This document shows, piece after piece, positions 1,804-39,182 of a stretch of 39,182 bases of DNA. Positions within the stretch are counted from its first letter, which is position 1. Every line of letters begins with the position of its first letter. The notes under the pieces are model-generated. The model made no database searches, was not told the origin of the DNA, and saw only the letters and a program-made list of their open reading frames with translations. Position numbers and translations under genes: made by a program. The stretch is from a virus: positions 1-39,182 of the IMG/VR virus record IMGVR_UViG_3300036861_000714; one strand, given 5' to 3'.

Positions 1804-2579
1804 TGCCCTGGGTGAAGACTCCCGTCGACCTCGCGGAGTACTCAGACGTTCGCGCCCTGCCTGTCGTCGAGCGGTGGACGTTCGTCTGCCTGTTCGCGCG
1901 CGCGCGGCGCACCCCTTCGAGCTTGATCGGCTGGCTGCTCGACGATCACGGTCGGACTCCGTCGATCCGCACCATCGGCACGTGGGCTGGGATCCCGAAG
2001 TCAACGGCCCATGCCCACGTGGACGACCTGCAGGGGCGGGGACTCCTGCGGAAGGACCTCGGCGGAAAGCTCCTCGTCCCGCTCGTGGTCGCGTTGGAGC
2101 ACCGGTTCGGTCGGCGCCGAAGCTCCAGTGACACCCCGCCGGCACCTGTGGAAAACCCACAGCTCGCCCTGCCCGGATTGTCCGGCCCACCGGACACTTT
2201 GTCCCACCAGTGGGACACCGCTTCTTTGTATGAAGTACAGAAGTTAGAAGACGTACGTCCCGTCGACGTCGTCGAAGCTGTGGAAAACCCCGAGCCAGGG
2301 CTCGGCCCTCGGTGGGATCTCGTCCCCGAGTCGGTCGATTCCGAGTCGTCGATCGCCTATCTCCTCGCCGAGCTCGCCGCGTCGGTGCCGGCGTGGGAGC
2401 GCACGCTCTCGACCCCGCGTGACGTCGCGAACATCGCACGTCTGGCCGGCGCCCATCCGGCGGAGCTCTACGACGCCCTTGCCCAGGAGCGCCTCGAGCC
2501 ATCGGCACGCAACCCGGCGGCCTGGCTGAACGCGACGGTCCGGGCCCGGGCGGAAGCCCGTGAGGAGCAGGCGTCGTGA
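1803..2579 (+). CDS. Replication initiator-like protein with N-terminal winged helix
   Basis: The ATG at 1803 shares its A with the upstream TGA, giving 258 residues. Residues 20-100 resemble a winged helix-turn-helix: SIRTIGTWAGI is the first helix-turn, STAHAHVDDL the recognition helix, then LLRKDLGGK the wing. Residues 110-180 form a Pro-rich linker. The C-terminal helical domain (about 180-258) includes DVANIARLAG and NPAAWLNATVRAR, the kind of end seen in phage replisome organisers such as lambda O, phage O-like and DnaD-like proteins. The linker DNA contains an origin-like cluster of repeats and dyads (see 2146-2290), the same position that the lambda origin has in gene O. The role is inferred from fold, context and that cluster. 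Confidence 0.7.
   Translation: MPWVKTPVDLAEYSDVRALPVVERWTFVCLFARARRTPSSLIGWLLDDHGRTPSIRTIGTWAGIPKSTAHAHVDDLQGRGLLRKDLGGKLLVPLVVALEHRFGRRRSSSDTPPAPVENPQLALPGLSGPPDTLSHQWDTASLYEVQKLEDVRPVDVVEAVENPEPGLGPRWDLVPESVDSESSIAYLLAELAASVPAWERTLSTPRDVANIARLAGAHPAELYDALAQERLEPSARNPAAWLNATVRARAEAREEQAS
2146..2290 (+). other. Candidate replication origin inside the initiator gene
   Basis: Two identical 13-nt repeats, ctgtggaaaaccc at 2146-2158 and 2278-2290, each contain TGTGGAAAA, one base off the DnaA-box complement TGTGGATAA. Between them lie two 18-bp dyads, 2179-2196 and 2200-2217, both of the form TGTCC-N8-GGACA and separated by 3 nt, so their centres are 21 bp apart (two helical turns). An AT-richer stretch follows at about 2220-2260. 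All of it falls in the region coding for the linker of the replication-initiator-like protein. The repeats are seen directly; the origin role is inferred. Confidence 0.5.
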
Positions 2580-26392: not shown

Positions 26393-27814
26393 TCATGCGG
26401 CTGCTCCTGCCGGCAACGCCGGCGTGTCGTCATCCTGGGAATCCTGGGAATCCTGGGAATCCTGGGTCTCGAGCTCCGGCTCCTGGCTCGGGTCGAAGTG
26501 CACGCCGAACTGAGCGAGGAAGCTCGCGAGGATTCGGCGAGACGTGTCCTTGCCGAACCAACCCTTGTCCTCGGCGACCGCCAAACCGTTCGCGACCTGG
26601 GTGAGCACCGAGCCGAACCGGGCCGTGTCGCGCGGCGAGATCTCGGGCGCCTGGAGCTGCACGAGCTTCCACGGGACCTGGGTCTTGCTGGTCTCGCGGT
26701 CCTGGTCGTCGTACACCTTCACGTGGCCCATCTCGTCATCGGGGATGACACCCGAGTCCACCGCCCGCTCGATCACGAAGCGGGTGATCTGCTTCAGGCA
26801 GTCGAGGTAGTAGCGCTGCCGGCGCGCCAGGTGCTTGATCGTCGGCTGACCCATCTCCGTCGCGGTCGCGCGGTTCACGTCGGAGGAGGAGGAGAGCCAG
26901 TGCTTCGGGATCCCGGCGCCGGCGGCGATATGCTGCATGACCGTCTCGGCTTCCTTCGACGTCTCGTATGAGCCGAGCTCCGGAGCGACGGCCTTCCACT
27001 CCACGCCCTCGTTGTGCGCCCTGACGGACCCGCCCTTCGGCGGCGTCCTGTTCTCCGCCAGCCACGCATCGACTTTGGACTGGTCCGCGTCCTTGATCAG
27101 CACGTCCCAGATGAAGGTCCGCGCGAGGCGCGCCCGCTCGACCATCTCCCAGAGCAGCTGATCGAAGGCGTCGAGCCAGTCGGCCACGTGCAACAGATCC
27201 GGCCAGCCGCGTGTGGCGTTGGAGACCGAGTTCACCTGCCAGCAGAAGACCTCGCCCTCCAGGACCCCCTTGCCGCGATCGCGGACCACCTGGAGCGGGC
27301 GGCCCCTGATGCCGGCACCCTTCTCCCGGATCCACACGGTGTCCAGGACGAGCGGGTTGTTCTTGATGGTCTCGATCCGCTTGATTTGGCCGGGGTCGAT
27401 GTAGCCGAGGCGCACGAAGCCGCTGACGTCGCCGACGAAGGCCTCCGGCAGGAGCTCCCCGTACAGGCCGAGCTCGAGCGCGAACTGGTCGTTGCGCTGG
27501 TCCAGGGCGTTCTGCCCGTCGGTCCAGAACTCCTCGACGACGTCGCGGACCCACGGGTTCTTCACCGTGAAGGTGATCCCGTCGCCGACCACGAAGTCCC
27601 GGATCAGCTCGGTGAGCCGGTGCCCCAGGGGGTTCGACTGGTAGAGCTGGAAGCAGACCTCCTGGGCCCGCGCCAGGGTGAGCGAGTTCAGGTCGCGCTT
27701 GCCCATGCCGAGCTCCCGCCACAGGTGCTCGTCGGGATCGACTCCGAAGGGCGTGGCCTCCGAGAGTGGAGGACCGAAGGCCTTGACGTGGCCGCGGGTC
27801 TGGATCGTCGTCAT
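26393..27814 (-). CDS. Portal protein
   Basis: The ATG at 27814 overlaps the previous stop (ATGA), giving 473 residues. It sits between the terminase genes and the capsid gene. The N-terminus has DPDEHLWRELGMGKRDLNSLTLARAQEV, then a wing and stem with YIDPGQIKRIETI and WLDAFDQLLWEMVERARLARTFIWDV, and a clip/crown region near KLVQLQAPEISPRDTARF. Portals form dodecameric rings for DNA entry. The C-terminal tail contains a Asp-Ser-Gln repeat coded by a 9-bp tandem repeat. Confidence 0.82.
   Translation of the reverse strand: MTTIQTRGHVKAFGPPLSEATPFGVDPDEHLWRELGMGKRDLNSLTLARAQEVCFQLYQSNPLGHRLTELIRDFVVGDGITFTVKNPWVRDVVEEFWTDGQNALDQRNDQFALELGLYGELLPEAFVGDVSGFVRLGYIDPGQIKRIETIKNNPLVLDTVWIREKGAGIRGRPLQVVRDRGKGVLEGEVFCWQVNSVSNATRGWPDLLHVADWLDAFDQLLWEMVERARLARTFIWDVLIKDADQSKVDAWLAENRTPPKGGSVRAHNEGVEWKAVAPELGSYETSKEAETVMQHIAAGAGIPKHWLSSSSDVNRATATEMGQPTIKHLARRQRYYLDCLKQITRFVIERAVDSGVIPDDEMGHVKVYDDQDRETSKTQVPWKLVQLQAPEISPRDTARFGSVLTQVANGLAVAEDKGWFGKDTSRRILASFLAQFGVHFDPSQEPELETQDSQDSQDSQDDDTPALPAGAAA
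26432..26467. repeat. 9-bp tandem repeat in the portal gene
   Basis: About four copies of a 9-bp unit (tcctgggaa) lie near the 3' end of the portal gene. On the minus strand they code the run DSQDSQDSQD in the acidic tail. Being in frame, copy-number change alters the tail length without breaking the gene. The codons differ from the GC-rich usage nearby. Confidence 0.7.
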
Positions 27815-28080
27815 CGCTTGATGATCTGGATGAACTCGACCTCGTCGCGCTCGATGAGGACCTCGCCGTCGATCGGATCGGGGTCCCCGGCGCCGACGAG
27901 CTCGGCCTGGCGGAGGATCAGGTGGTTCGGGGTGACCTCCCAGAGCACGCCCCGGAGGTCCCCGGTCCCGGTCTTCCGGTTCACGATCACGCGGCCCTTC
28001 ACGGGCCACCCGGCCAGCTGGGCCTCCAGGTCCCGGGCGCCCCAGCGCCGGGCGAGACGCGAGCGGAAGCCCACGCTCAA
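27811..28080 (-). CDS. Small Sm-like/beta-barrel protein near portal
   Basis: A TTG at 28080 overlaps the upstream stop (TTGA); a GTG at 28074 is the alternative. The 89-residue protein has a basic N-terminus, then five to six strands: GRVIVNRKTG, GVLWEVTPNHLILRQAEL, GEVLIERDEVEFIQII. This order looks like a small Sm/LSm-fold barrel. Such proteins are seen just before portal genes in actinobacterial phages and prophages; their role is unknown. Confidence 0.6.
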   Translation of the reverse strand: MSVGFRSRLARRWGARDLEAQLAGWPVKGRVIVNRKTGTGDLRGVLWEVTPNHLILRQAELVGAGDPDPIDGEVLIERDEVEFIQIIKR

Positions 28081-38925: not shown

Positions 38926-39182
38926 ATGGGCAACGAACCGGGCACGGGGCTCGCGACCCTCGACGCCTACTCGGCCTCCGAGTACAACGTGCTCCGACCC
39001 GTGATCGACGTTGTCGACCGCGGCGCCACGAGCTCGCCCTACCTCGTCGAGTCGGTCGCGATGCTCTCCATCTCGCCGAAGGAGCAGGCCGGCGAGACCT
39101 ACCACGACTTCCGGTACGCGAACGAGCGCGAGGGCCTGTTCGCCCTGTCGTCTCTCGGCCTGGCGAAGATCGCGAGCGCCGC
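38926..39182 (+). CDS. Hypothetical early protein (partial, open at right edge)
   Basis: Only the N-terminal 85 residues are seen from an ATG at 38926, chosen for GAGGGG upstream; a GTG at 38830 is the coupled alternative. It contains YNVLRPVIDVVDRG, VAMLSISPKEQ, and FALSSLGLAKIASAA. The design of short strands and a helix recalls DNA annealing or single-strand-binding related proteins of phage early regions, but I could not assign it. It would be followed by genes leading to the SbcC-like gene if the genome is circular. Confidence 0.55.
   Translation, partial: MGNEPGTGLATLDAYSASEYNVLRPVIDVVDRGATSSPYLVESVAMLSISPKEQAGETYHDFRYANEREGLFALSSLGLAKIASA

Follow-up and report, generated by a model that had tools for sequence, protein, structure and literature searches.

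Few phages have known replication origins, and the segment at positions 2146-2290 of a viral record in IMG/VR raises the question whether the cluster of repeats found there, inside a gene, is such an origin or serves another purpose. The window, that is the whole stretch of DNA analysed, comprises 39,182 bases with about 68% GC and codes for portal, terminase, head and tail proteins and an integrase. An SbcC-like gene is truncated at its left end (1-820) and an open frame continues past its right end (38966-39182), so the contig looks incomplete. GC skew reaches its maximum near 23.6 kb (block-permutation p 0.04), but as the skew is weak and the contig incomplete we did not count it as evidence. 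The cluster lies in an ORF on the plus strand (1803-2579, encoding the 258-aa protein P0001), with the SbcC-like gene on one side and RusA-like and HerA-like genes on the other.

We found that the 13-nt repeat CTGTGGAAAACCC is present in exactly two copies (2146-2158 and 2278-2290), which bracket two 18-bp dyads of the form TGTCC-N8-GGACA, TGTCCGGCCCACCGGACA at 2179-2196 and TGTCCCACCAGTGGGACA at 2200-2217. Their centres (2187.5 and 2208.5) are separated by 21 bp, all as described in the original prediction, and a scan of the entire window yielded no exact TGTCC-N8-GGACA site beyond these two. Arm complementarity extends over 7 and 8 bp. A close pair of dyads with 7-bp arms occurs once in the window (2179-2217) and never in 100 Markov-shuffled genomes; pairs with 5-bp arms of any sequence and several spacers average 0.17 per shuffle, so that a 5-bp-arm pair alone is modest evidence. 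Within each 13-nt repeat the minus strand carries the nonamer TTTTCCACA (2147-2155 and 2279-2287), which reads TGTGGAAAA on the opposite strand. These sites had been called near DnaA boxes; the type of site was recognised properly, but "near" was too cautious, as they fit the consensus TTWTNCACA in full. The consensus occurs twice in the 39 kb, just at the two sites flanking the dyads (expected 0.06 +/- 0.24).

The order of elements is DnaA box, dyad 1, dyad 2, AT-rich stretch, DnaA box. The presence of AT-richer DNA 3' of the dyads, noted at the outset, was confirmed: a stretch of about 42 bp (2217-2258, codons 139-152) has an AT content of 60%, compared to 32% for the whole gene, and is a candidate DNA unwinding element. 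When the synonymous codons of the gene were resampled in 200,000 trials with the protein fixed, the AT content of this stretch was reached in none of them, both DnaA boxes were recreated in a single trial and the dyad pair in 0.8%. The AT-richness of the stretch is thus a matter of synonymous codon choice, and the sole TTA among about 910 leucine codons in the genes examined is located within it. These computations show that the dyads, the DnaA boxes and the AT-rich stretch of the window are real and selected at the DNA level.

P0001 is replication-initiator-like. Pfam matches are limited to HTH_IclR (E=6e-5) and MarR_2, and the AlphaFold2 model (mean pLDDT 58) shows a confident winged-helix (wHTH) core and a helical C-terminal domain, with residues 96-175 disordered. 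The wHTH domain spans residues 38-101, mostly at pLDDT 72-91, and is encoded on the plus strand at 1914-2105, the C-terminal domain (residues 180-257) at 2340-2573, likewise on the plus strand; by analogy with the layouts of lambda O and pSK41 Rep, the latter presumably recruits a partner protein. The dyads encode about residues 126-138, so that "Pro-rich linker", as this region had been called, is a fair description of what is predicted to be a disordered connection between the two domains. Foldseek returned weak matches to wHTH folds of the IclR/MarR type, a comparison that is weak because of the low mean pLDDT. The Pfam search matched P0001 neither to Phage_rep_O (PF04492) nor to HTH_36 (PF13730), no significant match to PHROG initiator families was obtained, no close homologue was found in IMG/VR or INPHARED, and the four genomes reached through their dyad loci yielded no relative of P0001. 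Judged by its sequence, the protein is too divergent to match the HTH_36 or PHROG 270, 428 and 678 initiator families, which share the arrangement of wHTH domain, linker and C-terminal domain. Since no initiator family matches significantly, its assignment as an initiator rests on this layout, the wHTH domain, the gene neighbourhood and the class of dyads it carries.

This class was delineated by searching the 39-bp dyad-pair pattern as DNA, without any use of protein information. Among the 2.9 million viral contigs of IMG/VR, 23 loci were identified at a period of 21 bp and 25 at 22 bp, one being common to both sets, and the GTDB bacterial genomes contributed 15 loci. A single control with scrambled arms (CTGTC/GACAG, 21-bp pattern) yielded 0 loci. 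On clustering, the 62 loci (15 from bacterial genomes) formed 39 groups, 28 of them viral. In 17 of the 39 groups the gene containing the TGTCC dyads has a PHROG match of the replication-initiation, O-like or DnaD-like type, often together with Pfam HTH_36, which was matched by 15 of 28 dyad-gene proteins. For the viral groups, which are independent of each other, the figure is 14 of 28 (p about 1e-14 against a baseline of 3%, a generous assumed share of phage DNA), and from their sequences three more groups (the L011 group, L015 and L028) possibly carry the dyads in an initiator-type gene as well. Among the remaining pairs are some between genes and some in genes of other kinds, hence initiators are strongly over-represented among the loci with this pattern without accounting for all of them. 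As the search shows, in unrelated phages this class of dyads is a marker of replication-initiator genes, and the window, whose initiator-like gene holds a TGTCC-N8-GGACA pair within the 21-22 bp range of periods, belongs to this class. We found no prior description of a TGTCC-dyad iteron class shared across phages in the open-access literature, most subscription papers being outside the scope of the search.

Taken with the scrambled control and the identical layout of lambda O (see below), the DNA-only search supports the claim that the initiator gene contains an origin, and we regard it as very probable that 2146-2290 is an in-gene, lambda-type theta origin, predicted to be bound by the product of its own gene. 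One dimer of the wHTH protein would bind each 18-bp dyad; the pair of dimers on adjacent dyads, together with host DnaA at the flanking boxes, would bend or wrap the DNA, the AT-rich stretch (2218-2259) would open, and the C-terminal domain would bring in the helicase or its loader.

Of the alternatives, the one that survives best is that the dyads are operators through which the wHTH protein or a repressor controls transcription, with replication starting elsewhere. P0001 resembles IclR/MarR regulators in its wHTH domain, and some dyad pairs in other genomes are intergenic (L006, L014, L044/L046/L048). The dyads of the window, however, are located mid-gene, about 375 bp past the start codon, dyads of this class are found again in the linkers of replication initiators, and an operator function leaves both the DnaA boxes and the AT stretch unexplained. 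We therefore consider such a function unlikely.

The repeats could also mirror the peptide LSGPPDT-LSHQWDT, i.e. a repeat in the linker that incidentally gives rise to inverted repeats in the DNA. The period of 21 bp corresponds to 7 codons, both copies share L-S-x3-D-T, and with the protein fixed the pair does reappear in the small fraction of resamplings given above. In other phages, however, the dyads occur at a 22-bp period as well and encode unrelated peptides; those in initiator genes occupy all three codon frames, and successive copies of the 22-bp array of L052 translate as GQKCP, GTKMS and EDKNV. It is therefore the DNA and not the peptide that is conserved. As the linker is moreover predicted to be disordered, and above all because of the three frames, we rejected the peptide reading as very improbable.

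Inverted-repeat arrays also serve partition, packaging and recombination systems, and a site of this kind might simply happen to sit in the gene. One group of dyads from bacterial genomes adjoins a 465-aa ORF of unassigned role, which would suit such a site, but in viral contigs the dyads are tied to replication initiators and in the window DnaA boxes adjoin them, leaving this explanation a very slight chance. Equally slight is the chance that the dyads act as RNA, with two short hairpins pausing or regulating translation or transcription: as read from the sequence each could give a stem of 7-8 bp in the mRNA, but many related dyads have arms of 5 bp only (L017, L019, L025) and an arrangement in tandem every 21-22 bp or so is better suited to binding of protein to DNA.

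An origin within the initiator gene, as favoured here for the window, belongs to an already known type. Lambda O contains its origin inside the initiator gene (PMC3985674), and when used as a positive control our dyad finder recovered its known iterons, ATCCC-N9-GGGA[AT]. In the lambda record these are 18-bp features in codons 116-144, 20, 24 and 23 bp apart. In both lambda and the window, dyad iterons follow the part of the gene coding for the DNA-binding domain and are themselves followed by AT-rich DNA, so that the comparison with the matching part of gene O, made from the outset, holds: the repeats of the window sit between wHTH and C-terminal domain and the AT-rich element adjoins them. 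The two differ in the half-site (ATCCC in lambda, TGTCC in the window), in the number of iterons (four versus two), in the DnaA boxes, which flank the dyads of the window unlike those of lambda, and in the protein family, P0001 matching HTH_IclR instead of Phage_rep_O.

Genetic data place the origin of Staphylococcus phage 80alpha within its initiator gene ORF20 as well, since a deletion is not complemented in trans, and ORF20 and ORF21 suffice for autonomous replication (PMC5499656). The 80alpha record annotates the origin in the linker, where short perfect palindromes, CCAACGTTGG and ACCGTTAACGGT (L073 4675-4900), precede an AT-rich stretch coding for Asn. In contrast to the window, 80alpha has other palindromes at another spacing, a low-GC host and a DnaC-like loader gene next door, none having been identified in the window. 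In SPP1, oriL is found within the initiator gene 38 and comprises repeats and an AT-rich unwinding element (PMC6316719), similar to the window; its boxes, however, are direct repeats and a second origin, oriR, exists, whereas the window shows one dyad pair. RepA_N plasmids such as pSK41 also carry the origin at the centre of the rep gene, in DNA coding for a dispensable linker, and pPR9, an HTH_36 chimera with a phage-like HTH_36 DNA-binding domain, supports replication (PMC5703833); both are plasmids, unlike the phage of the window.

Comparison with the other loci shows which properties of the cluster are general. Tandem arrays of three to nine dyads are present at several loci. The 21-bp spacing of the window had been taken to mean exactly two helical turns and binding on one face; 21 bp is compatible with this, but related arrays span 20-26 bp, and close spacing of dyads, rather than exactly 21 bp, is the rule. 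The window shares DnaA boxes close to the dyads with the L011/L016 group alone, an extra match in L049 overlapping a half-site. AT enrichment at other loci occurs on both sides of the dyad array, which does not support a general rule of AT-rich DNA downstream only. As the bound site we preferred the 18-bp unit over a 13-bp unit GGACA-N3-TGTCC, given the 7-8 bp arms in the window and the constancy of the 18-bp unit in L009, where spacing varies (26/22/21). The opposite is seen in L018 (10952-11111), where the 3-bp spacer of GGACA-TAT-TGTCC is constant and the 8-bp spacer variable; from these sequences the 13-bp unit is a possible binding site in L018, and phages may differ in the unit that is bound.

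Relatives of the window were sought through its neighbouring genes, i.e. those for TerL and the SbcC-like and HerA-like proteins. The nearest relative phage is L074 (HerA-like protein 59% identical), and tblastn revealed no credible homologue of P0001 in L074 or L075. L074 carries a different initiator from that of the window: it belongs to the L004/L024 family, being 28% identical to the L024 protein, and its linker contains four dyads of the type TGTCA-N7-TGACA, 24, 22 and 23 bp apart. The window and L074 have a HerA-like gene in common but not their initiator, and each initiator has dyads of its own, which suggests that initiator and origin travel as a single module. The neighbour-gene search also led to L065, a short contig around TerL, to the distant L076, and to L077, where dyads are absent from the annotated gene adjoining HerA, the one gene considered there.

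The half-site is TGTCA in L074 versus TGTCC in its family member L024. A similar change is found between L062 (TGTCC) and Staphylococcus phage 77 (TTGAC), the initiators of which are 42% identical and differ in the recognition helix. These two sequence comparisons suggest, but do not prove, that recognition helix and half-site change together. Among named phages, several with homologues of the dyad-bearing initiators (Staphylococcus phages 77 and SP120, Butyrivibrio phage Ceridwen, Caldibacillus phage CBP1) have other dyads in the linker, 22-24 bp apart, and no comparable dyad array was found in the initiators of Virgibacillus phage Mimir87 and Flavonifractor phage Chenonceau. The linker-dyad layout is thus common but not universal. 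As a tentative proposal, which we put at somewhat below an even chance, the wHTH initiators of phages could read the dyads inside their genes by a recognition code: phages and prophages from several bacterial phyla would have retained TGTCC, and the half-site would shift along with the recognition helix. If this were true, origins and binding sites could be predicted straight from viral metagenome sequence. The recognition helices, each matched to its half-site, offer material for studying how initiators read DNA. A short DNA pattern, used without protein information, has pointed to the replication initiators of many uncultured phages and provides concrete, testable candidate origins for these viruses; such start sites could be located from sequence alone.

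Some loci outside this scheme were noted in addition. A RecG-like gene with AAA_4 and HTH_11 domains, which is not an initiator (L029, 5579-6631), has eight TGTCC dyads between its domains, the region being partly N. Four proteobacterial contigs (L026, L031, L033 and L036; Thauera and Dechloromonas are named) have the dyad pair near the 465-aa ORF, and one of them contains such an ORF on either side of the pair. The related viral contigs L044, L046 and L048 have an intergenic TGTCCC-type pair at 22 bp, outside any initiator gene. In the window itself, third-position GC is very low at 27840-27950, close to the 5' end of the ORF for the portal protein (26393-28009), and the start chosen for this ORF may be too far upstream.
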